Positions 13,141 to 62,070 of a DNA stretch of 64,000 bases are shown one piece after another. The notes under the pieces are model-generated. The model was not told where the DNA came from, ran no database searches, and saw nothing but the letters and a program-made list of their open reading frames with translations. The stretch is from Sipunculus nudus (taxonomy: Eukaryota > Annelida > Sipuncula > Golfingiida > Sipunculidae). Both the position numbers and the translations under genes were made by a program. Position 1 is the first letter of the stretch, and the number at the start of each line of letters is the position of its first letter. The stretch spans positions 19,562,979 through 19,626,978 of the forward strand of contig CM049321.1 in assembly GCA_026874595.1 (NCBI GenBank), read 5' to 3'.

Positions 13141-13228
13141 CATACGTGTTGACAGTTACCGCTGACTTCTTGGAATCAGATGAGGAACTGGACTTGGACT
13201 ATGAGTAATTAAACTATGATTTTATGAA

Positions 13229-13965: not shown

Positions 13966-13968
13966 TAG

Positions 13969-32155: not shown

Positions 32156-33641
32156 GGCGATTATCGTGCGACGATGTGATGTTTATAGGGTTTTTCCGTT
32201 AGTCCATCGTACAACAGTAAACTCTCACTATTTAAATCAATGGTTGCTTTATGCGCCCGTCTATTCCTAGGATCAGTGGACAATGGTGTTGTTTAAATAC
32301 ATGGACTTGGTGGATCAACTGCAGTCTGTTAATATTCATTTTTAAGTCTATCATGACTAGTACAGGGTGACTTTCACCACCCACACCGATTATCTGGCGG
32401 TACTGACCTGGCCTTTAGATCACCCGCTAAAATTCATTTGCATCAGGATGTTAAGCTCTAAATATATGTTATTTTTTATAAGGATACTGATACCATTTGT
32501 TTGTAAATTGGTGAATCATCTGATGATATATATGTAAATACCATAATAAAATCCAATTCTACATGGACAAGATTTACTCTAAACAGCTGTTTTCTGTGGT
32601 TTGTGAGCTACAGGATAAGTCCCGGATAACACTTCTGCCAAATGATACGTCTGGCTGTGAACATCCAAATGTTTCTGTGACTTCTTCTTGGCCAAAATTG
32701 ATCGCATCCGCCGTGAACCTGACTCCTGTGTATGTCAACCTCCTAATTTTGATATTTATAATGACCCTTCCTTGTCCTGTTTTACACTAGCGATTAAATC
32801 AGGAGGTACATGTACTCATGATGTCATCGTCAATAAAAAAAACAATATTTGATTCCATGCCCACTGCCCTCTTTAAGCAATGCATGGATAACTTACATTG
32901 AATACCGTCAATACTAGTGTTATGCCTGTCCCGTCTACAGACGGTTTACTGTGGGTCCATAGGCGTTGGTTGCTACACTTTTCCTTTTCAAGCTTTTTCA
33001 ATATAAATATCTCTTTGTTTGATTGATCGGTATCCTGCAATGCAAGATAATGTCAGTAGTATATGTCGTGCGGTTTTTCTCGAGCTCCTCCGTGTAGCTT
33101 CAATCCGGCGCTTCTTCTCTATAAAAGCGTGCTGTCGGCTCATTTCCGCCACAGTATTATCTCGCCTGTAATTCGATTCTCGCTTGGTACCTGCATGGCA
33201 AGTCTCGCGGCAGCAGATGGTGCAGAATAATATTTCGCACCTCATCATTAGGAAGCGTATGACTGACCATGTCATGCCGCTGGTCTAACACCTTCATTAG
33301 CTTCCATTCAAAATACAAAAATTGCTGATTCAGTTAACCGCAATTTCGATGGCTCATATCCATCATACTTAGTCACCTAACGGTCTTTGCTTATGCTGCA
33401 TTCAGCTGGAGGAAATCTTCTTAAGAACTAACAGTTAGTGTAATAGTAAAGTTGGTGAACGATCCTTCCGTTTCTTAGCCCCAAAAGTATGGAATTCGCT
33501 TCTGAATATTTCCGCTTCTTGAATCATTTAAACCAATTTAAAAACGTATCTCTTTCGGTAATCTATTGATCATTTATATTTATAATTTGTTTATCTGAAA
33601 GTGGGCTTAGGGAGAGGCACAGGGAGGGGGGTAGGTTTGCA

Positions 33642-35427: not shown

Positions 35428-36442
35428 GTGAAGATGGAACAAAAACACAAAGTTGGGAAACCTTCCTTCCTTCTCCTTGATCCAAGAGATTCATCAGAAG
35501 CTATAGGTCCTGGTTATGAACTTGATGTGATACGCGACTGGATCAGAAACGTCGATCCGAAAATTCCAGTTCACGTAAACAGGGTCAAGGAACAAGAGGA
35601 TTATGGAATGATAACTCGAGTTATTGGAATATTTCCTGAAACAACAATTTTGTCATTGAACTATGCTTCTAAATGCCAGGGAATATCTCAGGTTTTAACT
35701 TTACCACCGGCTTCGGAACAAGATGAATCTTGCTTGAATGATCTTCAGACCTCCTCGACTACAATCACATGTTACGTCGTCGGGAAGGCAGGGAGGCAAT
35801 TTTGGGACCAACGCATAAAACGAAAGACAATTTCATTTCTTCCAGTACCCCGTGCACCAGATATCCTGCAAGGAGAAACATATTTGGTATCTAAAGATCT
35901 TATACGCTTCATAGTGGATGTTACAAATCCCTGTGAGAACACTAAAAATGATATCAGTATTCTTTTAGAAGTTATACCAACAGTAGAAACTGCTGGGAAA
36001 AAGAAGGAAATAATATTTTTGCACAAAAACGGTACATCTGACGCTGATATAACATCTGTTCCTGGGTATTCAACATTAGAATGCCTTATGGTGAGAGTAG
36101 GTCAGGCACATGAAGTAGAGCGATTTTTCCCAGATGGAATATGGCTTCTTCTTGGCAGGGGAAAATATATAAGTTGGGTCGGTATGCAGCCTGTACTTCA
36201 TGGCTTGCCCCATGTTGCACATATTGAGAACCAACTTCTAAAATCAATAGAACCTTTGCCGGAAGAAATTCAACGGAGCATCATATGGGATGGGAAAGAC
36301 AGAAATTGTCTGAGGAAAATGTTGCAGGAAATTGTGAATAGTCCTGGCGACGCACTTAAAAAAGCCAATGTAGTGAGTGCACATGTGCAAGATTGTGAGG
36401 CTGTTAAAATGTCTCGGGAAGCATTTTATGAGGATGTCCTAG
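35428..36442 (+). CDS. Ankyrin gene exon 1: N-terminal unknown domain
   Basis: A strong acceptor (13 T then 'accag') ends at 35427, so an upstream non-coding or coding exon probably exists; the first ATG is 35434. The frame then runs 336 codons without a stop to donor 'ctag|gtttgt' at 36442, phase 1. Notable segments are 'KPSFLLLDPRDSSEAIGPGY', 'DVIRDWIRNVDPKIPVHVNR', 'FFPDGIWLLLGRGKYISWVG' and 'SIEPLPEEIQRSIIWDGKDR'. It looks like a mixed alpha/beta globular region. I do not recognise a family. Its length, uninterrupted frame and consistent splicing make it the best coding region of the window. Confidence 0.85.
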
Positions 36443-38111
36443 GTTTGTCACATTTTCAATTAGTCACGAATGTATTTGTTCATTTTAAATATATGTACAA
36501 AAGCCTTGCTAGCATGGTATATAAGGACCATTTTTTTTTAAATTTAAGATATAATACCTGCATGTTCATTTGTTATAGAAAACAACCTTGGTCAACTGTG
36601 TATCAATGTAATGCATAAAGCAGAAGGTGAACAGGAAGATCAAAATGGAACAAAGAAGCTCTCTTCCGCGTTGAAGCGGCTTTTTCGGCTAAATTTAGGT
36701 GAAAGAAGAAACAATAAAAAACAAAAACGTTATCCTAAAAGTTCCCAGGTTGAAGAAGAATGTTCCCGCTTGCCGGCAATGCCAGTAGCGATTAAGGACG
36801 GTTCCGTTTCATTGCTGTTGTATTTACCTGACGATGAAACTTATGGGCGCCTTAGAGAAGGCATCACCGATATGAGTATAAGCCAGGTGTTCGGTAATAT
36901 TTTCATCTGTATATGGGACAACATTTCTTCTGAACACATCCTCACAAGGTATGGCATCAATATTTCGTTAGAGGCTTTCGGCGAGAAAATATCAGGCAAG
37001 GGAATTTTAATTTTGAAATTTTGAAAAGACCTATTCATTTTTGTAGAAACAGCCTAGTAATTTTGCCGAAAAGTAAATTATTCCAATTAATAATTTGTCA
37101 TTAAACATAGGTTTCCACTGTTGTTTATATATACCCATATTATGATCAACAGGATGCACATTCTGGCTGGATTGCACCGACAATGTAAGTGCTACGGATT
37201 TATTGCTTTCCGAAAAAAAAATAAGATCGATATGACGTTATCTATGTCATATGTACGTCATTATAGTAACATACATGAACATATTTGGACATGATATTCT
37301 TCCTTCAATGTTATTCCAAAGAATGGAGACTCCCTGCTACATCGATTGGCCAAGTTTGGATGTGCAGCACATCTGCCCTCGTGCATTGACAAAGAAAATC
37401 TCAATCTTCAGAATAACGTCAGTGTTTTAACATTTTCTTTAAGAAACAAAAAAAAAGTAAAACCATTATAAGGCTCTGCAGCATTGAACTACAGCCTTAA
37501 TTAAACGTTCCCCTTTATTAACAATAAATCATTATTTCACAAACTAAAATTTCACGAATAAAACGTTTCTTGCAAAATGATTACATTCCGCAAGCAAAGG
37601 AATTTCATCATTGTTACATTGTTCTTTATTAAATATATTACTGATGTGACTGCTTGATATCATATCTTTTTAATGTTTATTTACTTGTATCGTTCATTGT
37701 GAAATGCTGCAGCTATGATTTCGGACCTGCAAATGTTGAGATATATACATTAAATATAATATAATTGATAATTGGGATATGAAAGCAGTAAGCTAGTAAG
37801 GCTGTCGGAAATTATACTCAGCAATAAAGGTAGGTGATCCCATCAAAATTTCATAGCTAATCGACATAAATTTGCAAAGAGACAAATGTCTCAGAAAACA
37901 AATCTTTTTTGGACCAGTGCAAAGGATTAAAAATGGAAGGATTATTCCTTCTAATTGATACAGCTATGTCACATTGACTACCCTGATGAAAGATGATAAA
38001 AGTTGCAGAAATACGTTATTGCTTGAAGTATCAGTCTTTTCAAAATGTATGTTTATAATTCAGCGATGCTATGTTTTGGTTAACAATACATTTTATCGAG
38101 TGAAATCAACA

Positions 38112-38175
<64 letters not shown>

Positions 38176-41100
38176 CCATTCTATATTTCCTTAACGCAGA
38201 CACGCCAAACAGCACTTCACCTTGCATCATCCCAAGGATATGTTGAAGTGTGTCAATCTCTCTTGGTGTACGGAGCTTCAGTAAACATAAATGACCAGGT
38301 TAGTTGCACTTTCGGCTTTGTAGAACCCAGTTTTCTCATACATTTAATTCTTTGTGAAATATGAATAATTATGTAAAAATCAGAAGTGTTAATTTCAATA
38401 CCGAATCACAAGGAAGCTGAACATCGTAATATGGTATAATTTTGTGGGTTCATTCATTATATCTTTAATCCGGCCGGCATGAGGAGGACTCGTTGGTAAC
38501 ACCTCTTCGAATAAAAGAAAACTGTCTGCTGATTTGCTATAAATGGCATCCGGTAGCTATTCAGACGATTTTCGTTCAGACGAATCCAGTGTAGTTCTAA
38601 GGAAGTTGGAGACTACATGTGCATGCATATTATGCTTTAGTTTCAATTCCTTTCTGCTGGGTTTGCAATACACGCCTGGCCCTAGAAATAAATGTACTTA
38701 ATTCCAATTGTCAAAGCAATCTAGTTCATCAGCTACGGCTTTGGAAGTTGCAACATTTGGCTGAAGTTTGATTTCTGATTTATGGATAAATTAGCCTGTA
38801 GAGATATTTTTGAATCACAGCAGAAGGATTCCGAGGACAGCAGCTCTGTTCCAAATCATTCAGTGACTCTTAAACTATCCGATTGCAAAATCAAACGCTT
38901 CTTCTTCTCTCATGTATCTTTATTCATAAGCTGTCAACACAACCCCGGTAGGTATTAAGGTATGCCCATGATATGTCTTAGCAGCACAGTTCTATCCCTA
39001 ATGAAGCCAAAGATGCTTTCCCAAAAGGCCTGTATTTACGACCGTTGTCTGAATGCAAACAAAAAAACACCAACATATATAATGGTTAACACCTTAGTCA
39101 TGTTTGTACATGTACTTTCTTTTGTCACTGATCATGGCTACATGTTATAATCATATGCAGTTAAGAACCAAATAGATAATACAACATTGCTGCAACAGTT
39201 TTGAAATAATTGGTGGAAGACTGAAGTTGCCACAACAAGGATGAGGCATAATATATCTTTAGAACTATATATATATATTTATATGTGAACAGAAATTCTA
39301 TAATTAATATGCTTAACACAAACGGATTTCTGTAAAAAAAAACTAATGTTACGGAGCACTCATCAAAATAAGTGAAAAAAATCTGAAATGCAATCTGGCA
39401 TACAACCACCAGTAATAACAAGATAAGATGATAAAGAGAGGTGACATAACCTTTTCTGCTAGCACAACTTTTTAATTTGCAGCGAAACGAAGTTATACAT
39501 TAACAAATATCCTTGGGAAATTGCAGAAGTTTTTGTAATACCTGTAATTATTAAAGATTTATTACATCATTTTATATATTTATATATAATATGATTATAA
39601 ACATGAAAAAGAACAGAAAAAAACATACACAAAACTTTCGTTTCACATTTTGATTCACTAATAAGATATAGACCCTATGTACCCTCAAAAATGTCTGATA
39701 AAGCAGGATAACTCAGTTTCTATTTTATTTGAATCTTTAAATGTCTATGCACTCATTGGAAATTACACTCCTTGACATTATCATTCAAAATGTGGCCATA
39801 AAAAGGGTTACAGATACGCCTGCAAACGTAAGGGACCCGGGGTATAATCATGATAAATTTGCATACTTTGATGATTAAAGATTTAGGTTGTTTGGGCCTA
39901 TAATCACAGAGTTTGTAATCTGTGATTTAGTTTAGTTTAGCGTAAGTATAAACACAGGAAAGCTGTGAAGAGCCTCGGCTTCTCTTTTGTAACGTCAGTA
40001 GACGGTACTATGCAGTGTCTGAAGACCTTGCCACTACATTTTCAGTGTCAGGAGGTTTTAACCCCCTTCTCTGTTTTATCGCCCAGGTTTAGCAGACGTT
40101 CGCACAGCGTGTCGTCATTTAGTGCCGTGTATTTTCCTTGGTTTTCAGTTAGTCCGTGTGGTGTCATGGTAGCTTTAGTGGTAGCGTATAGTGCAGTCGC
40201 GTTAACACACAGGTCGAGCCGGGTGTTGTGTTATAACGTAGGTTCGTGGTTCGTGCGTCCCATGTAGGTTCCTTACGTTATCTTTTATCGCTATGGAACT
40301 GTTGAGAGAGGCCACAGACCGTGGTAATACGATGAGTTATCCGGGGAGGAGTTAAAGACGTTTGCTCAGAGCCAAGTAGCTCAGGCTAGAGACCAGGTCG
40401 CGCAAGAAAGAGAGATCGAGATCAGCTCGATAGGGCTCATAAGCATGAGTAAGGGAAGCATGATAAAGCTCGCGCGCACGAGTTAGAGTCTCTTCAGCCA
40501 GCAGCAGATGAGGTTGCACATGATCAGTTTCCAGCAGTAAAGTTACCGCCGTTTGATGAATCGACCGATCGAATCGATGCGTAACTCGAAAGATTCGAGG
40601 GAGAGGCAGTGAACCAAGAGTATCCGCGAGATAAGTGGGCATTCCACCTAAGTACTCTGTTAAAGGGCAGAGCCCTCAGTGTATTCCCGCTTCTGTCTGC
40701 AATGAATGCATAGTGTTCTGATGGTTTAAAGTTAGCCCTATTAAAGGGTTATAGGATGACAGAGGAAGGGTACCACCGATTATTTAGATCGAGCATGCAT
40801 GAAATAGGCGAAACGCCCAGTCTGTTTGCTGTTAAGCTGAATAGCTGGACAACTGGGTTGAATTGAAAGGAACAGAAAGAGATGTTGATATCCTCTGGGA
40901 CTTACTGCTCAGACAGCAATTTGTTAACTGCTGCAGCAAGGAGTAATGGTCTTCTTACAGGAGAAGTGTAGCCCGATTGGTCAAATGGCCGCTTTAGCAG
41001 AACGTTTTACCCATGCACCCGTGCCGAAACAAGAAAATGGAGATTTTTCCGTCGGAATTTACCCAGGGGCAGACAGACGACATATCTTTGGCTACTTACT

Positions 41101-44100: not shown

Positions 44101-44146
44101 GTATTTTTATTGTATTTTGAGATTTGCTCGGTTCAAATCTTAACAA

Positions 44147-44177
<31 letters not shown>

Positions 44178-47100
44178 GCGTATGTTTTAATTGCTTTTGA
44201 AGATTTAGGCAGATTTATGTTTCAGTTGTTCCAAACTCCACTGCACTTGGCATCTCTAAGAGGTCACGTTGCTGTATGCCGGCTGCTCCTTCAAAGTAAT
44301 GTGGACGTTAATGCACGCGAACTGGTAAACCCCACAATTTTTTTGTTTTTATTTCCGAGTGTGTTTTTAACTGCGTTTAAAGGATTTAAAAAATGAGGAA
44401 ATAACCTTCCCACATATTCTATTGAATTTAATGGGATTTGACATTTCGTGTTGAGAATTTGTTTTGATTAGGTACTGTTCAATATTTCATATTTTGTCGC
44501 ATAGAGAGATATAATAACATGTTTATATCAGTAAATGTTAAGCCGTCGATATACTAAATTGAATCATATTATTGTTTTTAGACTTTTCTACCTTTTGGTG
44601 AAGAGAACTTAATCAATTTATTATTTATAGAATTTAAAAGGTATCATAACTGGAAATCAATTAATCTTCATTTGATCCTCAAAGAATACAAAAATATCGA
44701 AAAATAAAAATATTTTAGAAATAGAAATCATGATTATTAGAATTTGAAGCGTAAGAGCTGTGAACACTATGTTTCTATGTTTATGCATACAGCAGGCCTA
44801 CATGCTCTTCATACGGTGTATATTTCACAGAAATGAATATCGTCTGAGTAAGAACTAAATTCAACCTTAAATACTAGTATAAAAATACATTAATTATAAT
44901 TTAAGTCCACCATCACCCTTTAGAATTACGAAGCTTTTGTAAATTCGGGAAGGTTTTTTTTTACCTTTTGTTAATAGTAGAGTTTGTAAAAGTTTCTTGT
45001 GCTTTAAACTTTTTATTTACCTCCAGATTGGACAAACGCCTCTTCTTCTGGCATCAAAGGGCGGCCATGCAAAAGTGTGTCGACTACTTATTGATAAAGG
45101 GGCTCTTATGAAGTTGAAAGACGTAGTAAGAGAGTTTATTGTAATGATGGCTGGAGACGGACTCCTTTAACCATTAGTTCAAAGCATTCCGAAATATTTT
45201 CGGTTTTAGAAATATCTGTATCAAAAAGGGCGGGCAAAGTCTAGCCTGATTCGCAATATATTTTACATTGATTTTAGGATGGGACTAAATTGTACGTACA
45301 CTTTAAACCTGGTTCAATATATTTAATGATAAAATGTATTTTTCTAAGCGAGAAGTTAGGGCTTACATAAATGAAATACCATGACATTTTAATAAAATCA
45401 GAGGAATATCAAAAGGATGAATTTACACACCTAGACTTTACATATGGTATAATATTCATACAATTTTATCAGTTGACGAAAAAGAAAATAATATAATTTT
45501 TTTAGTATGGTATATAATGGGAATGTACATACTTATTTAGAGAGCAAAAAATAGAAACCTGTCTAAGTTTCGTTTACCTGATTATCAATATATCTTCTTA
45601 ATTTTGTTTAAACGTGACAGTTATATTTTAGTTGAGCCAAACTCCACTGCACATTGCATCTTATGAAGGCCATGTTGATGTCTGTAATGTGCTTATGCAA
45701 AATGGTGCGGAACTGGATGCATGTGACCAGGTAATTAACATTCTATGGTAAATAAAACGACCTTACTGTCTCTAGAACCAAACCAGCAAAATCAAGTGCC
45801 GGAATTAGGGCCCTTCCATAATGACTAGAGATGACTACCCCCAGAAAAAAACTGGAAGATAGGGAGACGCTGAAACCCCCGTACTTTGCTTTATTTATTT
45901 ACTCTTCTGAGTCATCGCCAATGGGCTTTCTCTCGACTAAAACATCCTGTCAAGTCAAGATAGAATTCTTCTAGCCACGGCGTCACTGTGACATGTCATT
46001 TCGATCGTTCCTGATTTCAGAATGAAAGTTCTATTGTCTTTCTACTTGCCACGAAAGTGCGGAGCCCTAGCCTTTGCCTCATGTCTATAAAAAAGCCGTA
46101 TCTGTTACTGAGTTCTTCTAGTGGACTTAGTGTGAAAAAAATCAACTGATTGTACTCGTGCACTGCGGGTCGTAACTTCGTTAGGCAAAAACAGCAAATC
46201 AAAAACACATTTGGTGACTGATTCTTAACGATAGGTCCTCTAAAGCAGACTGTATAGAGAGAAAGATGCAGCAAGTGTCGGGCCATTATAGATTAAAATT
46301 TCGCCATATATCAATAACGATAGCTCATATGTTATTTTCTAGTTAAAATAGGAAAAGATGGTCTGTAAATATACGTAATCCTTTTGATATCCACGATGTA
46401 ATTTATATATGAATCTTCAATTTGATGAGTACTAATTTGTTCCATCGGGAAAGGCTTTCACGATATACGTTACGTGCAATGTGTTATTAAACATATATAA
46501 CGCTATATTCCACAAATGTGACATTTTAAATATAAAATAATGCAAATAACAACAAACCCGTCCTCGTGCTTTAATATTTGACCATATTAGCAGTATGAAT
46601 ATTTGAACATGTCAACTGCTACATGCCAACACATAAGTGATAAGAATTCTGAATAACGTGATTCGAATTAAGGTATTGATCTTAAAATTCAAATGAACAA
46701 AAAGAGAGACTAGTTATTCTTTGGATGATTTTACTGTTTTTTTTTTTCTTTCATTGTAAATATATCTCGATAAGTCTAATAAATTCAACATTTTTCAGGA
46801 AAACCTCACCCCTCTCCATTTAGCCTCCCAGCAAGGCCACTCTGATGTATGCCGGATGCTTTTACGTCATGGTGCGATGGTGGATTCATTCGACAATGTA
46901 AGTTCCCTGATTTATTTTTGGAAACACGAAAGCGATTGTCTTTATGTGTATTGATCTTTAATATTTATAATCAAATATTGCAAAAACAGTATATATAAGA
47001 ATAAAATGGAATGCAGTCATTACTTTATGTTACGGAAACCATTATTACATGATATTATCAGTTATATAAATGTAAATTAATCAAGTGCCGGTCAATTAAT

Positions 47101-50100: not shown

Positions 50101-53100
50101 CATTTCAGTTATATACACATGATATGAAAATACACATATACTACAAAAATTCACAGTATAAAAGGCAAATATACTCATTCCAATTAGACTCAACTCAACA
50201 AACTCACCAAGGGGTAGTGGTAACGCCATGTACCTCAACACTGCAAAGCTGTGAGAGAGCAACTACCTGATCAAGTTAGCCTGACGAAGTTAGGTGCCCC
50301 GGCCGACATTTCCCAGTATAGCTTGTAATTGATATTCTTGTCTTTTAGGGTCCAGGTGTGTTTAGACAGTCATTGTTTTTGTCGTTGGATCTGTTACGAA
50401 AGGATTGTTTGTGGTTATTGTATCTGGTCTTGAAATCACCTTCAGTACACCGTCATTGTCTGTTCTACCTGTTGCCTTATAGACACTGACCAATTATAGG
50501 ACATTCATCTGTTTTTTACGGCAGTTACTTTGTTTTAGAGGAACATTTGTAGCTTTCTTGGTAGGACTTTCATATTTTGTTTGATGGTCAGGTTAGACAT
50601 GTTGGGTAAACAGCTATATCTAATTTTCAAATTGTTCCTGTTGAATAGTTTGTGGTACCTGTCATGTCTGGAAGTGTTTTACAACTAGTTTCATAAATTG
50701 TGTGCCAATGTTGGTGTTTACATAACGGCTGTAGGGGTAATTGAACCATATTATTTTCCTTTTACAGATCCTTTTGTTTTTCACTGAGGGTTCAGCATAT
50801 TTTAAGCTTTCTGTGAACCCGCTTTCATCAAAGCTTTGTCATACATGGATTTGGCTTTCATAAATAGCTCTTCATTGCAATAGGTGTCAGGTACACACTT
50901 GCTGATTAATTTCTCAAAGTAACGAAGTCCCAGTTACCCGATTTCCGGTTCGATAGGGAAACGTTGGGATATTTAACTGTATGTAAATTTTTTTGATTCG
51001 TAAGTCCAATGGATAACGGCCGGCCGACCGAACGGACGACGGGAAAAAGACCATCACTACAGCTCAGATGACCTATGGTCAGCTGAGCTAAAAAGTGTTG
51101 GCAGTACTAGCTAATTCAGATCCCTGTCGAACAAATTTAGCATTGTGGAGAAAAGCTTCGGGTCAGATCCTTGGCGCCACGGGAATTCAACATTTTAACA
51201 GCTTATGTTAATTAGATGCAATGGACAAATAACAGGCAAACACCAAAAGTATTAGTAATAGGCCTTATTATTGAAACCAGTTATAGGCCGAATGTGTCTT
51301 ACCATAATGCGTTAGCATATATTGATGACGGTTAAGGCGATGAGTGCGAAATCGTGTGTGGTATGTGTGATTGATGAAACAAGGAACAATCATGTTAAAA
51401 ATTTGATTAAGTATATGTGTTTATGTTAAGATTTATGTATAACGTTAAAACAAGAATGTACTTATGGCTAAATCAATACTTAATCATATCCGAGGGAGAC
51501 GCTAAATCTTTTCTTAATCACAGTTTAATATTTATATTAGTGTCAGTGTCATTTATTTATTTTTTTTCAGCTGGAACTGACACCGCTTCACCTTGCATCC
51601 AAAAATAATCACGTTGATGTATGCCGATTTCTTTTGGAAAATGGTGCACCTGCTTCAACATACACTGAGGTTTCTTCCGTAAACAATCAAACTCGTAGTC
51701 ACATGCATTTGTAAACTATAGATATAAAGTTATAATTATGGTCAAGAGGTAGAAACTTATCACAGTGACATCAAGTTATGTGAATCACACTATGGTCAAG
51801 TGAACAAATAATGATGTTTAAGTTGATAAGAGGATTATTTTAACTCAATATGTATATATCATGAACCGATATGATGCGCTCAGGTCATTAGAAAGGGAAT
51901 AACCAACAAGGTACTTTATATATCTGAATTAAACGGCTATGTTCACTTTCCGAAACATTCACAAGGAGGGTCTTGGTGTTTTGTCGATTTCTTTCCTGAG
52001 CGTCACTGAGCCTATTTCTATCACACGTTATCCTAGTGCATATACGATTGCTGATTCAAAGCATAATATTACTCAGGAACTCCCACTTACAACTATTTTT
52101 GTTTTGATTCATATGTTAAGAATAAACTTTATTTCAAGTTAATAATACAGAATAGCCGTCTTGTTTTGTATATTCTGTGAACCTGTATCTACTGGCTAAT
52201 ATTCGTTGCCGGATAATAAAGGATTAAATCAGGATTGTAATTTGTCGATTAAACTCGAAGCCATATTCAGTTTTCAGACCGAAGTTCCGAACCATTAGAA
52301 TTTTCATTTTGAACTTCAACATTCAATCCAATTGGTTATTATATTTAAATCTTTCAGTTGAAAACCGCTCCTCTTCATTTGGCATCATATGAGGGCCACC
52401 ACGCTATATGCCAGCTACTTCTGGAACACAGAGCATTACTTTCGGACAAAAACGAGGTAAGTTGTTACATTGATCTATTGATTTCAATATGGTCGATTTG
52501 TTAAGCTGTAACAGTTAATGCACAACAACTATTTTGATATTCATACCTTAACTTAACGCTTGGTTGAATCTTTAGAATGAATGTTTACAATTTCTATGTA
52601 ACACCAACTGTAAATCGTATAGACGATCAATATGCAAAACACGTATTCCTCTGACAAGATTTTTCCCTAGCATGCATAATCTTACTTTTTTCAAACATTT
52701 AAACAGAATAACGGCGGTCTATTACCTAACATGACGTTCATGATTATATATCTATTCCAGTACTAGTTATTTTTCAAACTACTGCGATCTAAATTTTGAA
52801 TGTTGAGATAAATACTGTGATACCTTCTATTAGTTCCATACGACTTTGACGGATATTCACCGACACACCCATTTTTGAAGCTTTTATTACCATTAATACA
52901 TTTAATGTCAAAACAAGTGAAAGCGAGGTAACAATTTATGTCGCTGATTAACTTTTTTTCGTGCAGAACACACTTCAGCATTATTGTTGGGACAAATTTA
53001 TATTTCAAGTTAAGTTCAGTATTATTAAACGTTTAGCCGAACACAACAGAAACTAATTGTGAACTTGTTTTTATTAACTAGAATAATATGTTTGTTTTGC

Positions 53101-56100
53101 TGGTTTACTGAATTTCGCAATTCCTGCCTCTCCAGTCCAAATAATATGTGTTCACAAAACGCACCGTCATAATCCTTAAGAGATGCATTTTAATTTTTTT
53201 TAGCTTTCACCTTGAAAATAGTAAAACAATCGACACTAAGTCAATATTAACATGAAAAAATGATTTTTTTCTTACACGTTTCTAACTAAAGAACGAAACA
53301 TTCATTTTTATTTCATTTACTCAGTTTTTATACTGTTCACATGTATCATTTTTATCTTTTTGATTTCTTCCCTTGCGTGATTAAAAAAAATGGTATTTGT
53401 TTCATCCTCTGATACAGGGTATTCGAGGCCACTTATGTGAGTCAATGAGGTGTTAGGTAGGAAATCCCATAGAATTACTTTACCTTGAAGCCCTTTACAA
53501 ATTTGTCTTCTCAAATTAAGACTTTTTCAGACGTAAATGTTTAAAGCCTAACCATACAAGAAGTATGTTGTGTATGGAAAGGTTTATTTATTATTATAAA
53601 AAGAGTCCCTTTTCAAGAAAACGACGACCGCAGCTTATAAAATCCAAAGACAGGAAACTGCAGAATCCATAGTTAAGATACTTTCATTGTTGTATGTTAC
53701 TTATACTCTCATATCAATTATATCGGAAGTCCTGAAAAAGTAATTGGACTTTACAATAACGTTACAAATATGTTCGAAGCTCAATTAAATCTATCCATTT
53801 TTTATTTTCCCTTACTTTTTATCACATAGGGTTATTTATGACCTTTATCTTGATTGGAATGAAGTCATTCGAGAAAAAACATCGCTGTGTACATAAAATC
53901 TAAACGCTTAAGTAAATTTACCTTTTTTTATTTTTAAAGACCCAAAAGACGATAATGAGTGTAAGTTTATCTATCAGTTGAAACTGCTAAAAAGACAAAG
54001 TAAAATAAGAAATATTACTTTCGATTTTATTAGCCAAAGAAATTCTTGAAATTACTTTTGAATGATTCATGAAACTAGCTGAAATGAGAAATTTTCAGAA
54101 TAAAACACTTTAATTTAAAATTATGTTTAGATATCATCTGAATGTATGTCGTATCAAATGATTTTTGTCAGCATTTGTCGCCACTTCATTTTGCAGAACG
54201 GTTTGACGGCTCTTCATCTATCCGTCTTCTCCGCTGATCTGTCAATCTGTACACTATTACTGAACAGAGGTGCACCCGTAAATGCAGCAGACAAGGTACA
54301 CGTAGAAAATATAATCTTTTTTTCTCCTGACGCACATAAATGCAGGGAACTGCATTTTTACGTGATCTGCTTGAGATTTAAACCACGGTTATCAGGACAC
54401 GGCAACTCATCGACAAAGACCTTAAAATCATATTTGTAAATAGCATTTGTCTATGTTTTATGTATATCCATGTTGAAGGTGGGTGACACGTCTCTCCACT
54501 TAGCTTCGCGTCATGGTCATACTAAGATAGCCGAACTGTTGATGAATTTTGGGGGAGATGTAAATGCATGTGACAAGGGGAATATTATATTTTAAAAGTG
54601 TTTTTAAACTTGCGGTGAGGTTTTTGTTTGCAAGTTAATTTTTATTTACTTAGGTTATAAAAGGATTACTAAAGGTAAATTAAATGTAAATAAACAAAAA
54701 TTTTTTTTTTTGCTCTTAGCTCGGATTTTCACCACTCTTCTTCGCAGTAGCAAAGAATACGATGGATATGTGCCGGCTTTTCGTCGAACGAGGGGCTGAA
54801 GTAAATCTTGAATCAAAAGTAAGCGGTCTTTTCATTTCCTGTGGGTTTAAAAATGAATTTTTATTAACAGGCTTGCATTGTTCTTCACAACCTCAAATAA
54901 TAATTGTCAATAACTTGGTCTAAAATTACATGCATTACAGCGAGTGGGAAATAAATAATTGAATAAGGCTACCTTATTATTTTAAATAAAAATATCTTTT
55001 TTACATATATTATGTATAACTTAATATAGTTTTTCGCAGAATGAACGTATGCTGTACCGATTAAAATTACGGTGTTCCGTTTCTGCAGTTACGTGTTGTA
55101 AATTGATAGTTATAGATATATATAAGATTGTGGAGCGTTGCCCAATTTTCGAGGCATTTGACTAGCATTTAGGTTTAGTCTCGACAGATCACAACATGAA
55201 ATTTCAACAGGACAATATATTATTACTTATCATTGTTTTTATCCGTTGAATCGAGTGAACCCAAAGTAGGGTTAGAGATGGGTAGAAAAGGCATTTTTTA
55301 TTATTGTTCTTGTTAACAACAACTATTTTATTGTGTTAAGTTTAGTGGAATAGATCAATCCTTCTACATCCAAAACAACATAATGAATTACAAGTAATCT
55401 TGTATATCAGATCATGTGATAATTGTCTTCGGAGCCACTGCGTTATTTGTTTAATTTGCGGACAGGTTAAATTTTAGTAGATGTCAACTATTGAACAGTT
55501 TATTATTATTAACAATATATGCTTATTTATATGGAGAAAATAAGCCAAATCGAAATGTTCTTCCGTTAGAAAAATTACTTTTATCTCTTCAAGTGGTATT
55601 TTATTTAAATGATTCAACAATAAACCTAAAAGAATTTCGAAATCGATTGTAATCTATTTCTAGGAGAAATAGTCCATCAGATAAGTACAAATATGGCCAG
55701 AACACTTTAGTTTGGGATACAAGGACCACATTTTGCATGTTTGATCGTTTAAGACCCCTTTATTAGAGAAAAATGACCGCCACTTTTTTTCAAGATGGGC
55801 ACAATTTACCCTATCAAATAAGCATTTTGATGTATCATTTGGTTAAGTGGTCAGATTTCAATGATCTTTATATCAGTGAGTAGTTTATGACGTATGGAGA
55901 TTTCATTTGTGCCATGCTCAAAGGTTTTCGATGCATATAATAGCACTTATAGTATATTTAATTGCCTCCCCTCCCGTCTTGCTTTACGTATTGAATATAT
56001 TGCACGCTGCTTATGCATAGATATATATCTATGGCTATGTAAATCAGGCTATATATATATTCCTTGTTAGCGTGACCCCTGTGGGATTGTTTACCATAGT

Positions 56101-59100
56101 TTTTTTTATTTATTTTCTTAGAGAATATAATATGTTAAGAGTGTCAAATCTCTTATAGAGCTTAGGTTTCCTCTTTTTTAAGAAAGCAAAAAGCAGACTT
56201 AACAACATACTAGCAAGAACTTCACAAACCTATGACAGTTGTAGTTACCGCGGTGACCACCTCCATGTCCGTCAATTTTGTGGCACACAAATTTTTCTAG
56301 CTATACACCTACAAAACGGCTTTAGCTTTAAGAAAGTGCAGACAATAACTTGATATCTATATGAGCTGCACGCAGGGTTTTCTTTTTATTTCAAAGGTCC
56401 ATTAACAAAAGAAAAAGTGACAAGAATGTGGTATTTATATTATTGTGCATGTTAAAAATGTCATCTCCAATACAAATGTCGGTAAACCCCACACTTTAAA
56501 CTAAAGGATTGTAAGCTAAGACCGTTACTTAAATTACAATTAAATGTGCTCTGTTAGATCTTTATTTTTAACCCCAAAACGATACTTCATAACTAAAAAT
56601 TTGGTGTAGAAAGGCCCTTGTACGCAAAGACGGAACTAAAACACACGTTAAATTGTTTTGTTTTATCAGGGACAGTATTGTTGTATGTCCCTTTATAATT
56701 TACATGGCGCAAATATATTTCATGTAAATTGGGGAAGTCACACCAGATAATTTTTTGATATGATAACCATATAAGATTAAGATTCAACATGTGCTTGTTT
56801 GATAATTTGTTTTATTAAGTCTCAATTAAATTCATAAGAGTAATTTTATACTTTATTCAATTTATTAAATTCTTTAAAATGACCAGCAGAATACCCATCG
56901 TTTCGATTCAATACATCAAAGATTTAGTATGTTTGCCAAATGGCAGTACCATTAGTGTTTTCGAAAAACTGGGATCGAGAAATCAGGGCTAGGTTTCCTT
57001 ATCGGAAATGATGCTTGTTCATCGTACAGTCGAGGATCCTGCGGAGAGATTTGTGGCAAGTTAACTGAATCGGCAAGGTTAAGATAGGAATAATTATTTC
57101 TTTGGACCACGCCCAAAGTATCAATTTTCAGCAGGATGAATTTTTTTACAAATAAATGATATTTAAATTACACACTGAGAGTTTTAGCAAACAACAAAGC
57201 AAAATGTAGAAGGTATAATAGAAATGTGATTAAAAAGAATAAAAAACACATATTTACCTCAATCATAACAAACCTAGTAAAATCAGGAAAGTTCGAGATT
57301 TTATTCGGTTGTAAATGGATTCAGCATCTTAGGAATGGATGTAAAAAAATCTTTAACATTGGATAAATGAGTCATATTTTATTACCAATAGCCTGATCTA
57401 AAAGTGGTTATTGGCAGCCATTTTGAAAAATGGCCGCCATATTGAATGTTTTGTTGCTTAACTGTTTTATGAAAAAGTTAGACCTTAGGGGTTTTGCATA
57501 CCAAATTTAGAATTGAAGTATTTTACACTTATCTGAAATCCATTCCTCGAATGAACGGACAGTTAACTGTTTATTTAGATGTTACAGCGGCAATGGCTAA
57601 TGCGAATCTCAGTAGCACGGTATCAAGTTGTTGTGTTAAAATAAAGGATGCTCTGTATATACAAGTTTACATGGAAGATCCTTTGAATAAAATTAAGTAT
57701 ATAGTCATGTTGTCATTCTATTAATTTACATTCCATTTCTTTATTTCTTAATGTATCATTTCTAGATTAAACTTACACCCATACACATTGCGATATCAAC
57801 AAGAAATGAAGCCATGTGTACATATCTTCTTGGCCATGGGGCAACATTAACAGAATATTCCGAGGTAGGTCTCATAATGTTTACATCGAAATATTAAATG
57901 TTATACAACAGACCCACCATATGAATGAGTATATGCTGGTGAAAGGATACACATATCATGTACATTATTCGTGACACTACATGTATTATTAACCTGTTCA
58001 ACACAAACTGCTAGTGATACAGTTATCCTCAGCCTAAAACAATCTACTGCCTGACGAACATGTAACATAATTCCTTACACTCACATAATGTTCGATAGGG
58101 TTGATTCTGTTCGAGTATCATCAAATATATTGCTTTATGGGAAAGTTTCACTTCGTTCATAGTTGAAGATATATTTAAACTAAACATAAAATTTCATATA
58201 TGCTAGTTAAAATGTTTTTACCACTTGCCTGATAATTTAATTTTGTTTCCTTTCCATACATGTTTTACGTTTCTAAATTGTTTTGCAAAGAAATTCAGTT
58301 AAAAAATGTACATAATAGTAATGCTGAATTTACTGTATATTACCGATGTCATTAATATACATAAAAAGATACGAACATAGACTATAGGAAAACGTGATCA
58401 TGACGTTTACATACCATTTACAGTACACACGAGAAAAAAAGAATAAATTTAATCAATGACAAAATACATAATAATGAAACACTTCTATCAACGGAAGCGT
58501 CAGTTGCTCATTTTTACTTTCCTTTACAGCCTTACCTTTTGCCACTACATTATGCTGCTTTGTGTGGCTTAACTGAAATGTGTGAAGTATTTCTTAGAAT
58601 AGGTGCGGCAACATCTCCCCAAGGGGAAGTAAGTCACTGATTCTGTGTTCGCTTTTATGTTACAATCTGAAATATTGGGTGAAATAACCTGTGAATCAGT
58701 TTTTCCTATAGCATACATATTTATAGGTAGGGATAAGTACAATTCAACAGGGTTTAGGAGCGGGGAGACTAGTCTCTTTATAAAGAAACACTGGTTCTCA
58801 AAGAGTTCTGTCGAGTAACTAAAAATTTTTGTAAAATTCAATTGTCTTAAGACAAATTCAGTATCGTTTATGTAAATACATTTAAGCATAATTGTTAATC
58901 GGTTATATTTACATATATTCCCTTTGTGCATAGGAAAAACTTTCACCTCTTCACTTTGCATCGGCGATTGGGCACACTGAAGTATGTCGATTTCTTCTTG
59001 ACTCTGGCGTTTTGGTTGGAGAGCAAACAAAGGTATTGGCAACATAGTGATTAATACTGTCACAACAGAGTGCTAAAATTGTTCAGGGGGAGTTACACAT

Positions 59101-60668
59101 GAAAAGAGATAACTTTCCCTCCGTTATTTTATAATGTGTACGACCTGATGCTGGTTAGGTTAATAAAAATTTCACATGTTACAGGTGATTTATCTTCCAG
59201 CCAGCGATTCGTTGATAGGGCATAAGCTTCAACTATTAAACCGAGAGTGTTTAAAGTCTTCAGACCGGGCACACGTCAGTCTACCTTAGAACCAAAATTT
59301 AAAAAAAAAGAAGATTTGGGGTTTCCTATAATTTTTGAATAATAATGCAAATGTCGTAGGTGATATCAGACCGACACATAGTTGATGCCATATCACACAA
59401 TTATAAACAATCATGCAAACTGATCATTATGAGTAATGTGCACCATTTACACACTATGTGAAGTACGGAATGTCCGGTCCACTCTTTTGTCCAAAATGTG
59501 TCACTAAACACAAGAAAGCGGATTCATAAGGTATGCCGGAACTGCGTCTCCGATCCTCGGAACTTTTTAACACGTTCGGCTAGGAGGAGGGGAGACAGAT
59601 CTTAAAGTCTTCTGCTATTTATGTGGTGTGGACTGTGTGCAAAGAATTAAAAATTGCAAAATCAAATGAATTACTATATCGCTTTCGTCATAATTTAGAA
59701 CAAAGTCGTGTTATCAGTTGTTCAAAAGTGCCCATACATTTACCAACTATTATTTCCTTTGCATGAATTTCAGAATTATAGGATGATAAATCATGTTATT
59801 GGATGAATTAACTGTAACTTACTCATTAAAGAACTTTAAGTTAAATATTAAGGATAGCTGTTGAACAGAAAAATGCCTTCAGCATCTGCTGCAATACAGT
59901 ACTTGTTAATAAGTCATGTAACACATATTGCGTATAAGATATAAAATGTTCTACCGCAAGTGTATGTAGGTCCATTTTAGAACATGTTGAACATGATTGG
60001 ATTAGAAAATGTAGACTTTAAAAGCAAATCATGCCTTAATATAACCATTCATCAATCGGGATATAATGTTAAATGCAAAGTAGATATAAACCTCCATGGT
60101 GAGGAAATATTTTATGCCAGAAAATTAAAGCTAAAAACTTAAACTTAAATGTTAAACATGAAGTACCAGTAACTTGATTATTACATGAATTTTAGAATGA
60201 TAAATCATGTTATGGTATATCAACCTTTAAAGATTAACTTTTAAATTATGATTATGATCAAGAATTCGGAACTTAAGTACCTAGAGTGTCAAAATGCACA
60301 AGATACGGGTATGTAGGCTTATATTGTGAGATATGAAAGCATTTGAATATTTATTGTCGAAAAGGAAGATGGATAATATATTAGATAATACTTAATCATT
60401 AATGCAAATTATGATATACCCTTAACAAGGTGGGTGACACTTTGGATTACATGTTATTTTAATTAAAAATACACAAATGAATACTAACGCATAACGTTGT
60501 TTCAGTATGGCCAGACTGCTTTACATCTAGCCTCGGCAACTAAACAAACTCAAGTGTGCAAGGCACTTGTGGAGCACGGTGCCGATATAAAGGAGAAGGA
60601 TTTTGTAAGGGAAAATGTCTTCTTCAACTCTTTACTTCTTTTCATATACAACCTTTACAATGTATTTA

Positions 60669-60701
<33 letters not shown>

Positions 60702-62070
60702 AATATATATATTAATACATATATGCGTTCTTATTTTAGCATGGGAATTTCCGGAGCAATTGGTATTTATAATGTAACAATTTAAAATAATACGGGTATA
60801 AATATAGTAGAATTACAAGGAAGAATTCTGCGTGGGGTTTACAAGTGCACTGCTTTTGCAGTTCGGGGATACGCCTCTTCATACTGCAGCAGAGAACAAT
60901 CATCTGGAATTTTGTGAGATGCTCATAGAACGTGGTGCTGAGATAGACACTAAGAACCAGGTAAACATTATAAAGTGTCAGAAAACAAATTATTAACTTT
61001 ATCATAGATAATCCTTATTTCACTCATAAATACCTTTAATGCCGTTTTACATCTTGTTCATTTCAAAATTCAAATACCCTTAAGTTGAGATCTGTTCGAC
61101 TTATCTCTGATTACATTAAAGAAGCAAAAGCAACGTGACTCCTCATCAGCATCTTGACTGCATGTGACTTAATGTTCATTCTTTTACTGTTAGATAAATC
61201 CACCTTGAAACAATAACGATGATCGTCTCACTTTGAGTAAAATGCCTCAAGTACTTTCTTGTGTGTCTTCTGGAACCGTGTTCTCAATCTACCTCAGTAC
61301 CCGTTTATTTATTTTACCATTTGTTATTTATCAAACTAAGAGTCGTACTAAAAGTCTTTGGATAATCTCAAGACCTGTTTTATTTTTTTAACCTGAATAT
61401 TACAGCAAATAAAATAAATGTAATTTCCCGTCTGAAACATGCATAGACTTAGACTTTTAAAACATGAGGTATAAGAGGATTTGGAAAAATCCTATCTTTA
61501 TAAAGTAAAACAAGATAAACAACCATTGTCATTAAGCTAAGAATTTTTATAAACACATGTATCCTTTACTCAGTTCAAGTTTTAAAACAGGAAACGTAAA
61601 AAATACATAACCTCCGTTGTATTTATTAGATGTCACAAATATCAGAATGGGTCTGTACAATAGTTCATTGACAAGCTCAGCTCTCTCGGCTTGCTATGAA
61701 AGAGGGTCGTATGGCCCTTGCGATGTCGATGGTTTTCTACCGATTTCCTACGCGTCTAGAGACTACTATACGCCATCATCTGCCCCGTATATATTGTAAT
61801 CCTTTAGATATTATAATTTGTTACAGAGTTTTAAGTTTCATGTAAACTAAATAGAGTTTTTACCTTAAAACATTTTAAAAAAGAGGATATTAGTGCGACT
61901 ATCTTCCATAGTTCTCCGTTTTCAGACGGATATGAAGGAATATTAAAAAAAACAATCTATTTTGTTTTCAGTATGACCAGACTGCTTTGCATCTTGCAAT
62001 CGGAAAAGGTCACGCTCAGGTGTGTGAAATTCTCCTGAATCACCATGCTGAAAGAGAAGCAAAAGATGTA
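35428..62070 (+). CDS. Multi-exon ankyrin-repeat protein gene (24 exons, 3' end open)
   Basis: Exons were traced by matching frame, phase and GT/AG sites. The model gives 3522 coding bases: about 486 N-terminal residues from ATG 35434, ankyrin block 1 (7 repeats), a 93-residue linker, and ankyrin block 2 (11 repeats). Introns 1 and 2 are phase 1; from the third intron on all are phase 0. One ankyrin repeat per exon is an old, symmetric arrangement. Ankyrin repeats bind proteins; no enzyme, membrane or death-type domain is seen, and there is no signal peptide, so a cytosolic or nuclear scaffold is likely. A basic patch (36704-36730) could be a nuclear localisation signal. No stop codon is reached in the window. 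I cannot give an orthologue. Introns range from 136 to 5927 bp and are full of element debris. Confidence 0.85.
36579..36995 (+). CDS. Ankyrin gene exon 2: basic patch and second unknown segment
   Basis: Acceptor 'gttatag' at 36578; the phase-1 codon joins as Glu. It begins 'NNLGQLCINVMHKAEGEQED', then has a basic cluster (RRNNKKQKR, 36704-36730), then 'GSVSLLLYLPDDETYGRLRE' and 'VFGNIFICIWDNISSEHILT'. The frame stops at 37022-37024, so it must splice earlier. The only donor whose phase fits the next exon is 'atcag|gcaagg' at 36995/36996, a GC donor. The other strong site ('acaag|gtatgg', near 36950) gives the wrong phase. Confidence 0.75.
37153..37184 (+). CDS. Ankyrin gene exon 3: 32-bp microexon
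   Basis: Bounded by 'atcaacag' and 'gtaagt'. With a phase-1 entry it encodes the end of a Gly codon plus CTFWLDCTDN and leaves in phase 0, which is what the first ankyrin exon needs. This phase fit is the main support. It would be lost if exon 2 used another donor. Confidence 0.65.
37322..37417 (+). CDS. Ankyrin repeat 1 (capping repeat, 32 residues)
   Basis: Acceptor 'ttccaaag', donor 'gtcagt'. It encodes 'NGDSLLHRLAKFGCAAHLPS...' and ends LNLQNN. The NGDSLLHRLAKFG helix is clearly ankyrin, but the second helix is unusual and the repeat is one residue short. It lacks the Cys at position 18 seen in the others. This fits an N-terminal capping repeat. Confidence 0.8.
38114..38176. repeat. (TA)n microsatellite in an intron
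   Basis: A TA run ending about 25 bases before the acceptor of ankyrin repeat 2. It takes the place of part of the usual branch and pyrimidine region, so length changes might affect splicing. Confidence 0.9.
38200..38298 (+). CDS. Ankyrin repeat 2
   Basis: Acceptor 'ttaacgcag', donor 'gttagt'. 33 codons, 'TRQTALHLASSQGYVEVCQS' then LLVYGASVNINDQ. Canonical TALHLA, V-x-V-C and the GAxVN turn are present. It follows a (TA)n run and a short intron stretch. Confidence 0.9.
38299..40291. other. First third of the 5.9-kb intron, no gene seen
   Basis: AT-rich intron sequence. It includes a perfect 9-bp inverted repeat (aatcacaga 39902-39910, tctgtgatt 39919-39927). The stretch 39960-40290 is more GC-rich and may be the untranslated leader of the gypsy remnant that follows. 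Confidence 0.5.
42087..42540 (+). repeat. Candidate 3' LTR
   Basis: Starts directly after the polypurine tract with 'tgtgttacg', typical for gypsy LTRs. The right end is not fixed; no matching 5' LTR was found by eye near 40 kb, so the call rests on the tract and start only. Confidence 0.5.
42330..42460. repeat. 25-bp minisatellite within the LTR
   Basis: The 'ccagtgag/ccagcgag' core recurs at 42357, 42382, 42407, 42432 and 42457, exactly 25 bp apart. Looser copies (near 42285 and 42316) extend it to the left. Confidence 0.85.
42541..44149. other. Rest of the 5.9-kb intron, unrecognised
   Basis: Several 60-92 residue frames on both strands. One plus frame (43217-43399, including 'SADLVKIKGPVQTAGGIRE') looks protein-like, but I cannot name it. 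No ankyrin exon is seen. Confidence 0.4.
44150..44177. repeat. (TA)n microsatellite in an intron
   Basis: A short TA run about 50 bases before the acceptor of ankyrin repeat 3. Confidence 0.85.
44226..44324 (+). CDS. Ankyrin repeat 3
   Basis: Acceptor 'atgtttcag', donor 'gtaaac'. 33 codons, 'LFQTPLHLASLRGHVAVCRL' then LLQSNVDVNAREL. It sits 5.9 kb after repeat 2, across an intron holding a gypsy remnant. The bases encoding QTPLHLAS nearly match those of repeat 5. Confidence 0.9.
45027..45125 (+). CDS. Ankyrin repeat 4
   Basis: Acceptor 'acctccag', donor 'gtaaga'. 33 codons, 'IGQTPLLLASKGGHAKVCRL' then LIDKGALMKLKDV. The usual TPLH His is Leu here. Confidence 0.9.
45632..45730 (+). CDS. Ankyrin repeat 5
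   Basis: Acceptor 'atattttag', donor 'gtaatt'. 33 codons, 'LSQTPLHIASYEGHVDVCNV' then LMQNGAELDACDQ. Confidence 0.9.
46799..46897 (+). CDS. Ankyrin repeat 6
   Basis: Acceptor 'atttttcag', donor 'gtaagt' (consensus). 33 codons, 'ENLTPLHLASQQGHSDVCRM' then LLRHGAMVDSFDN. Confidence 0.92.
47124..47222 (+). CDS. Ankyrin repeat 7, last of block 1
   Basis: Acceptor 'gttctcag', donor 'gtaaat'. 33 codons, 'LRRTPLHLASERGHLEPCKV' then LVDRGAAMKASFR. Pro takes the place of the usual Val before Cys 18. Confidence 0.9.
47550..47672 (+). CDS. Ankyrin gene linker exon a (non-ankyrin, 41 residues)
   Basis: Acceptor 'tttctgcag', donor 'gtacat', phase 0 on both sides. It encodes 'YKIIPEDFVPYVAAVANTVD' and ends DDRDEFDK. 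It has no ankyrin motif; the amphipathic first half and acidic end fit a helical linker. Confidence 0.75.
47947..48003 (+). CDS. Ankyrin gene linker exon b (19 residues)
   Basis: Acceptor 'ccttccacag', donor 'gtaatt', phase 0 both sides. It encodes VKCEDILELMLVLTKPKEE, one predicted helix. Confidence 0.7.
48301..48399 (+). CDS. Ankyrin gene linker exon c (33 residues)
   Basis: Acceptor 'aattttacag', donor 'gtaata', phase 0. It encodes 'IAQYIKRVESGEQSNPLVTE' and then ILSRAWKGMDTIQ. It has the same 99-bp length as an ankyrin exon but no ankyrin signature. It could be a highly diverged repeat or an unrelated helical pair. Confidence 0.75.
48400..49399. other. Intron sequence before the Penelope-like fragments
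   Basis: AT-rich, with T-runs near 49050. No exon or element is recognised. Confidence 0.5.
49400..49640 (-). pseudogene. Penelope-like element fragment 1 in intron
   Basis: The minus strand reads 'PYSRHVKTNICRQFMKLVDK', then YFPKHDRYPKLFNRN and 'LEISYSCLPNMSNL'. This is the region between the reverse transcriptase and the GIY-YIG endonuclease of Penelope-like elements. About 189 bp of it (49400-49588) match 50565-50750. Confidence 0.65.
50290..50900 (-). pseudogene. Penelope-like element fragment 2 in intron
   Basis: On the minus strand from 50900 down, across several frames: 'LFMKAKSMYDKALMKAG', then 'KRKIIWFNYPYSRYVNTNIG', 'QFMKLVVKHF', a Cys linker with 'ECPIIGQCL', and lastly a 'WTLKDKNINYKLYWEMSAG' segment, the end of the GIY-YIG endonuclease region. 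Frame changes and stops show it is dead. It is longer than fragment 1 and shares a direct repeat of about 186 bp with it. Confidence 0.7.
50901..51570. other. Intron sequence after the Penelope-like fragments
   Basis: Nothing recognised except a short GC-rich patch at about 51015-51045 ('acggccggccgaccgaacgg'). Confidence 0.5.
51571..51669 (+). CDS. Ankyrin repeat 8, first of block 2
   Basis: A strong T-rich acceptor ends 'tttttcag'; the donor 'gag|gtttct' is weak. 33 codons, 'LELTPLHLASKNNHVDVCRF' then LLENGAPASTYTE. Confidence 0.88.
52358..52456 (+). CDS. Ankyrin repeat 9
   Basis: Acceptor 'atctttcag', donor 'gtaagt' (consensus). 33 codons, 'LKTAPLHLASYEGHHAICQL' then LLEHRALLSDKNE. Confidence 0.9.
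52457..54196. other. 1.7-kb intron, no recognised content
   Basis: AT-rich; only short unsupported frames on the minus strand (52763-53008, 53317-53514). Confidence 0.5.
54197..54295 (+). CDS. Ankyrin repeat 10
   Basis: Acceptor 'attttgcag', donor 'gtacac'. 33 codons, 'NGLTALHLSVFSADLSICTL' then LLNRGAPVNAADK. Confidence 0.9.
54479..54577 (+). CDS. Ankyrin repeat 11, lacks a splice donor
   Basis: Weak acceptor 'atgttgaag', just 183 bp after repeat 10. 33 codons, 'VGDTSLHLASRHGHTKIAEL' then LMNFGGDVNACDK, the most textbook-like repeat of the set but with Ala instead of Cys 18. After codon 33 the bases are 'ggggaa', not GT; read through, the frame adds GNIIF and stops at TAA 54593-54595. Options are a broken exon that is skipped (frame is kept), use of a cryptic phase-0 donor 'gat|gtaaat' at 54559, or an alternative last exon (AATAAA at 54689). 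A base-calling error at the donor is also possible. Confidence 0.6.
54720..54818 (+). CDS. Ankyrin repeat 12
   Basis: T-rich acceptor ending 'gctcttag', donor 'gtaagc'. 33 codons, 'LGFSPLFFAVAKNTMDMCRL' then FVERGAEVNLESK. The TPLH core is diverged (SPLF). Confidence 0.88.
54819..57765. other. 2.9-kb intron, no recognised content
   Basis: AT-rich throughout. A 76-residue plus frame at 57494-57724 has no ankyrin signature and no splice sites. Confidence 0.5.
57766..57864 (+). CDS. Ankyrin repeat 13
   Basis: Acceptor 'catttctag', donor 'gtaggt'. 33 codons, 'IKLTPIHIAISTRNEAMCTY' then LLGHGATLTEYSE. Confidence 0.9.
58530..58628 (+). CDS. Ankyrin repeat 14
   Basis: Acceptor 'cctttacag', donor 'gtaagt'. 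33 codons, 'PYLLPLHYAALCGLTEMCEV' then FLRIGAATSPQGE. Confidence 0.9.
58934..59032 (+). CDS. Ankyrin repeat 15
   Basis: Acceptor 'ttgtgcatag', donor 'gtattg'. 33 codons, 'EKLSPLHFASAIGHTEVCRF' then LLDSGVLVGEQTK. Confidence 0.9.
59033..60505. other. 1.5-kb intron with internal self-similarity
   Basis: No exon. Two stretches with a shared theme ('atgaatttcagaat(t)at' then 'aaatcatgttat') at about 59763-59800 and 60185-60215 suggest a small local duplication. Confidence 0.4.
60506..60604 (+). CDS. Ankyrin repeat 16
   Basis: Acceptor 'ttgtttcag', donor 'ttt|gtaagg'. 33 codons, 'YGQTALHLASATKQTQVCKA' then LVEHGADIKEKDF. Its first codons resemble those of repeat 18 at the DNA level. Confidence 0.9.
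60669..60722. repeat. (TA)n microsatellite in an intron
   Basis: An interrupted TA run between ankyrin exons 16 and 17. Confidence 0.85.
60862..60960 (+). CDS. Ankyrin repeat 17
   Basis: Acceptor 'gcttttgcag', donor 'gtaaac'. 33 codons, 'FGDTPLHTAAENNHLEFCEM' then LIERGAEIDTKNQ. Confidence 0.92.
61617..61799 (+). other. Orphan 60-residue frame inside the last traced intron
   Basis: More GC-rich than its surroundings and slightly protein-like ('CDVDGFLPISYASRDYY'). The DxDGxLPxxYAS pattern faintly recalls the first helix of an ankyrin repeat, but there is no phase-0 acceptor in front and no second helix. Probably an element fragment. Confidence 0.25.
61972..62070 (+). CDS. Ankyrin repeat 18, last recognised exon
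   Basis: Acceptor 'tgttttcag', donor 'gtaagc'. 33 codons, 'YDQTALHLAIGKGHAQVCEI' then LLNHHAEREAKDV. Because it ends at a good donor, the gene continues beyond 62070 and, as far as I can see, beyond the window. Confidence 0.9.

Follow-up and report, generated by a model that had tools for sequence, protein, structure and literature searches.

One ankyrin repeat per 99-bp phase-0 exon in a Sipunculus nudus gene array, compared with related arrays in the same genome

In the vertebrate ankyrin genes ANK1-3, a repeat exon commonly measures 99 or 198 bp, and ankyrins carry ZU5, UPA and death domains. One class of repeat gene, as outlined in the available text of a review (PMC4585158, reporting Street et al. 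2006), has exons that are all repeat multiples and is likely to have come from local duplication of intron/exon modules. Exon shuffling may account for some repeat families but not all, according to the accessible part of Bjorklund et al. 2006 (PMC1553488), and the portion of Schaper et al. 2014 (PMC3995336) at hand reports that, where human repeats had clearly changed in unit configuration, 26% had at most one unit per exon. From marine invertebrates, GT4-TRADD-N-repeat proteins have been described (Kaur et al. 2021, PMC8195603), and in the available text of that paper they consist of a large domain at the N-terminus, one in the middle and superstructure-forming repeats, encoded at many genomic loci. 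A literature search that was thin on subscription journals returned no published description of the gene or arrangement considered here.

The window, that is, the whole stretch of 64,000 nucleotides that was analysed, carries on its + strand a gene whose exon chain is predicted from genomic sequence. Two upstream coding exons precede an array of 99-bp exons, each of which we call a cassette. All positions are given in window coordinates, continued beyond the window where necessary. Cassettes 1 to 16 were each identified by two consensus scans (with the array's own consensus and with a general ankyrin consensus), a profile and a splice-site check, except cassette 11, which was identified by the own-consensus scan, the profile and the splice-site check. 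The features are as follows.

35434 to 36442, + strand: first coding exon, N-terminal domain of ~336 aa (open frame; phase 1 donor inferred by eye via homology)
36579 to 36995, + strand: second coding exon, ~140 aa, with an EGS..L..YV motif (paralogue tblastn matches and a 13-row alignment)
37322 to 37417, + strand: possible first ankyrin exon, divergent, 96 bp, phase 0 (by eye; absent from the cassette-profile list)
38200 to 38298, + strand: cassette 1 (99 bp, AG/GT, phase 0)
44226 to 44324, + strand: cassette 2
45027 to 45125, + strand: cassette 3
45632 to 45730, + strand: cassette 4
46799 to 46897, + strand: cassette 5
47124 to 47222, + strand: cassette 6
51571 to 51669, + strand: cassette 7
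52358 to 52456, + strand: cassette 8
54197 to 54295, + strand: cassette 9
54479 to 54577, + strand: open repeat resembling a cassette but with no GT donor at its end (profile, reading by eye, own-consensus scan, splice-site check)
54720 to 54818, + strand: cassette 10
57766 to 57864, + strand: cassette 11
58530 to 58628, + strand: cassette 12
58934 to 59032, + strand: cassette 13
60506 to 60604, + strand: cassette 14
60862 to 60960, + strand: cassette 15
61972 to 62070, + strand: cassette 16 (the array continues past the window)

An earlier note on this DNA had claimed 17 exons of exactly 99 bp across 24 kb, each with phase-0 introns on both sides and each holding one 33-residue repeat cut just after an Asp/Asn turn. 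The extent holds, as the 17 repeats occupy 38200-62070 (23.9 kb). The exon structure holds for 16/17, in which AG, exactly 99 bp and GT follow one another, the frame is open and in phase 0 on both sides, and one whole ankyrin repeat is encoded with the exon boundary just past the D/N turn; it fails for 54479-54577, an open repeat that has no donor. The note had also placed the start at 35428, a position that belongs to the first coding exon (ATG 35434) and not to a cassette. Beyond the window end come two more intact cassettes, at 64319 and 69307 (L009:319 and L009:5307), making 17 exons a lower bound for the gene, and in the array extended by this pair 18/19 cassettes are intact whole repeat multiples of equal phase.

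The repeats carry the ankyrin signature TPLHLA..GH..V..LL..GA..N, their alignment consensus is xxxTPLHLASxxGHxxVCxxLLxxGA, and the cysteine at position 18 is invariant in 16/16 intact window cassettes. Most cassette acceptors carry a pyrimidine tract when read by eye. With a consensus derived from the array itself, 16 of the 49 open + strand intervals made up of AG, 99 bp and GT scored 38-117 and the remaining 33 scored at most 1, and in 20 triplet shuffles of the window the score never exceeded 2. The general ankyrin consensus provides the independent test; it gave 15/16 intact cassettes a score above 20, with 57766 falling under 20, and it scored the 42 open intervals of this kind on the - strand (donor GT or GC) at 7 or less. 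All 17 repeats were recovered at 20-66 bits by a profile built from 15 of those same repeats. A chance origin of the layout was rejected because the 20 shuffles came nowhere near it and the general-consensus scan agreed. A genome-wide rule of one-repeat exons for ankyrin sequence was likewise rejected, as ankyrin frames elsewhere stay open over hundreds of codons.

The exceptional repeat at 54479-54577 has an AAG acceptor, but the cassette is followed by GGGAAT, with no GT at its end, and an in-frame stop comes four codons further on. Unlike the other 16, it does not have the cysteine at position 18. A GT that lies 18 bases inside its end would allow an 81-bp phase-0 exon, and the repeat is probably a dead or shortened cassette.

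Compared with the class reported by Street et al., this locus shows no difference in kind. It shares one repeat per exon and equal phase on both sides (16/17 in the window, 18/19 in the extended array); the possible first exon is 96 bp long. Direct traces of joint intron and exon duplication occur in the sister arrays, and in the window 0/36 pairs of nine short introns exceed control. What the locus adds is that an old diverged array and younger ones can be compared within one genome. With ANK1-3 the gene shares 99-bp exons of one 33-residue repeat each, but other parts precede the repeats here, and none of ten open frames given to Pfam contained a ZU5, UPA or death domain. The best reading is that the layout belongs to a known class of repeat gene and that the ankyrin family itself is uncharacterised.

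The N-terminal domain is encoded by a frame that runs for 404 codons between stops, beginning at 35404 and with its ATG at 35434. The domain has 31 matches in its own 1.43-Gb genome at E<=0.001; manual merging of these match rows reduces them to about 28 places, and C16, the same contig as the window, has 14 of these. P137, W237, W248 and P253 are invariant in an alignment of 17 rows. The closest paralogue, at C11:74267946, is 45% identical. Near the window, at C16:19498117-19501771 (L030-L033), two damaged copies of the exon lie 2806 bp apart; they agree in score and in their stops and look like a pseudogene that was duplicated. In Pfam the window domain had no match and 17 members scanned gave nothing useful (best E 0.048), and a profile search of PDB with the domain returned nothing convincing. 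A ribosome maturation protein, the best PDB match (E-value 0.016) in the searches with the N-terminal domain and exon 2, was not believed.

Exon 2 is shared with paralogues, in that tblastn matches came from 6/8 rows and represent 5 distinct places, L029 and L047 overlapping; the other two paralogue rows, L035 and L040, had no tblastn match to the window. Its 3' end is ambiguous between a GC donor at 36996, suggested by homology, and a CAG/GT junction after 36886. The joint to the array shows an apparent phase clash, because exon 2 of the paralogues seemingly ends in phase 1 (by eye) whereas the first repeat exons start in phase 0. The gene's 3' end was not found, and the array continues past the window end.

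In overall plan the gene resembles the GT4-TRADD-N-repeat proteins as portrayed in the available text of Kaur et al., sharing a large domain at the N-terminus, one in the middle, superstructure-forming repeats and many genomic loci. It differs in that TRADD-like_N is missing at the loci of the window family. The TRADD-like_N profile PF20694 has a single genome match at E<=0.001, at C4:18223090, which is not a family locus. Pfam gave no useful match and no TRADD for 13 exon-2 sequences, and we rejected a TRADD-N identity for exon 2 on these two grounds. No glycosyltransferase was matched by Pfam among the 17 N-terminal members or by the PDB search.

Related arrays are present in the same genome. 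In the 100 kb downstream of the window, on the same strand, five cassettes (5/5 intact) lie at 84099-85454, an array of 15 cassettes (11/15 intact, spaced at ~500 bp) lies at 122808-129673, and two cassettes (1/2 intact) lie at 136305 and 136753. The second of these, referred to below as the 122.8-kb array, begins ~60 kb past the last window cassette. Downstream of the closest N-terminal paralogue, C11 has 23 cassettes (21/23 intact), mostly ~310 bp apart, a count that covers the 14 kb read, so that the array may extend further, and whose membership in the paralogue's gene is putative. One C11 cassette, L054:3765-3863, has an in-frame TAG with its AG and GT intact, and a full-length product would need this cassette to be skipped; another has lost its donor. 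Decay cassette by cassette is present in the related arrays.

On the basis of exon identity, the arrays differ in divergence: averages are 0.47 for the extended window array (n=19), 0.71 for the 122.8-kb array (n=15) and 0.72 for C11 (n=23). Exon and intron were duplicated jointly in the C11 and 122.8-kb arrays. Self-comparison matches cross exons and introns there, the longest being 4.4 kb for the 122.8-kb array and 1.1 kb for C11. A shift of 994 bp, equal to two cassettes, aligns the 122.8-kb array with itself over 3.7 kb at 76%, and its introns are up to 84% alike at two-unit distance compared with 64% in the shuffled control. Among seven introns of this array, 21/21 pairs exceed every shuffled control. 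The corresponding figure in C11 is 126/190 (66%), one third of the pairs not rising above control, and the excess there is small, with a mean intron identity of 0.70 against 0.66 and neighbouring exons (0.71) hardly more alike than the introns (0.70). In the window, 0/36 pairs formed by nine short introns of the 18, the long ones being left out, exceed control. The controls are broad for both C11 and the window, owing to unequal intron lengths. Self-comparison of the 35-70 kb stretch of the window found two matches only, neither with a cassette. The window array appears to be old, with no trace of module duplication in the introns tested.

Intact cassettes were also compared by tree and by substitution pattern, damaged ones being left out of both. 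In the tree, which includes 56 intact cassettes, these group by array: it has 10 label changes, where shuffled labels average 28.4 and 0/200 shuffles are as low. The tree rests on 33 columns and is poorly resolved, its bootstrap not settled. Nonsynonymous change is lower than synonymous change, with ratios, taken from mean values, of about 0.46 in the 122.8-kb array (11 intact) and 0.41 in C11 (21 intact), and the cassettes of both young arrays therefore look constrained as protein. The window array, at 0.73, is near saturation in synonymous change, and its ratio of 0.26 was hence not used.

We favour, with a probability of roughly 0.66, a gene in which an uncharacterised N-terminal domain is followed by an ankyrin solenoid of at least 18 intact repeats, whose cassettes derive from old module duplication and are probably constitutive, presenting a fixed surface. 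The array would have arisen through tandem duplication of intron plus exon modules, and each 99-bp phase-0 exon would hold one repeat because the array grew in this way. Given the equal phase, gain, loss or splice-site death of a single module would leave the frame intact, and a lost splice site would presumably cost one repeat and not the frame. In the window gene this growth would be old, as its cassettes have diverged while 16/17 retain an open frame and both splice sites. Since frames and sites were kept despite the divergence, the window cassettes are probably all spliced constitutively. The related arrays reflect later duplication, traces of which are still visible. The solenoid most likely forms a fixed binding or scaffold surface and perhaps, more weakly, has a role in intracellular sensing; that the proteins act in sensing or immunity is guesswork, suggested by the recurrence of the N-terminal family and by the similar layout of the GT4-TRADD-N-repeat proteins.

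A rival reading is that one giant gene spans 38200-69307, 84099-85454, 122808-129673 and 136305, all served by a single N-terminal exon. The four arrays share strand and phase 0, tblastn with 18 N-terminal rows found no further N-terminal exon anywhere in the 214 kb, and the cassettes at 44226 and 122808 pair across arrays on the tree with support 95/93. However, the arrays are separated by gaps of 15 and 37 kb, the second gap holding reverse-transcriptase-like frames (by eye), and an N-terminus of a different type would escape the tblastn search. We regard this larger gene as doubtful.

It is unlikely that the locus changes length rapidly, with cassette number differing by individual and supplying a standing repertoire of binding surfaces. 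The earlier note had raised a change in array length between individuals; a difference in length is borne out among the related arrays of this genome, as they consist of exon plus intron tandem units that were duplicated jointly, differ in number (15 against at least 23) and have lost single cassettes; this evidence comes from one assembly. It does not carry over to the window array, which is without such units, its exons being 47% identical on average and its tested introns unrelated. Rapid unit change is moreover rare in human protein repeats, in the accessible text of Schaper et al. 2014 (PMC3995336).

The same note had suggested splice diversity at one locus. As a device of this kind, the gene would yield many solenoids through a choice of cassettes that varies by cell or tissue. 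The premise is sound, because phase 0 on both sides of the 16 intact cassettes makes skipping, adding or moving a cassette frame-neutral and places any subset in frame. An ankyrin solenoid would also survive the removal of one whole repeat, and the C11 cassette at L054:3765, with a stop inside and both splice sites intact, would have to be skipped for a full-length product. Nevertheless, equal phase is expected from array growth with no splicing function required, constitutive splicing needs intact splice pairs just as much, and the window cassettes have kept frames and sites through their divergence as constitutive exons do. The idea is unsupported by the present sequences, and we consider it very unlikely.

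A combined scheme appears highly improbable, namely a multigene family in which a novel N-terminal domain is coupled to change of array length by modules, with dead cassettes skipped, to give a population-wide repertoire of binding surfaces for recognition. Least credible is a decaying gene in which the missing donor of 54479-54577 marks the onset of a series of hits, for although one window cassette has no donor and damaged N-terminal exon copies lie nearby (at C16:19498117-19501771, where part of the match contains stops), 18/19 cassettes of the extended array are deeply diverged yet retain frame and both splice sites, and the N-terminal exon is open.

Under the favoured reading of a fixed solenoid built by old module duplication, what is less usual is that one genome contains, side by side, an old array and younger ones that are similarly built. 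These arrays directly display the steps by which whole repeats are gained and lost, among them module duplication, two-cassette units and splice-site death. Should individuals differ in array length, the family would be suited to testing solenoids as a heritable binding repertoire.

Several other sequences were observed in the surroundings. Long ankyrin frames with equal scores occur, among the matches listed, on C61, C62, C66, C72, C74, C77, C83, C89 and C90; these small-contig frames appear to be multicopy ankyrin sequence and, unlike the cassette genes, are intronless within the frames. Open frames of 150-224 aa lie on the - strand at 76351-79418 (L010). Five open frames of the flanks gave nothing useful in Pfam; two of those at 76351-79418 were among the frames scanned and had no match. 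Retrotransposon pieces, with reverse transcriptase and a CCHC-like frame (weak, under the Pfam cut-off), lie at 12256-15407 on the + strand, and a retrotransposon reverse transcriptase with an RNase H part lies at 30780-32182 on the - strand. Inside the array, the intron stretches 49397-49574 and 50562-50737 are 84-90% alike and 1.16 kb apart. Just upstream of the window, from -9258 to about -2600 (L019), five near-identical open frames of 124 aa follow one another at an exact spacing of 1572 bp and form a tandem macro-repeat, a degenerate relative of which was seen by eye at 20398-20733.
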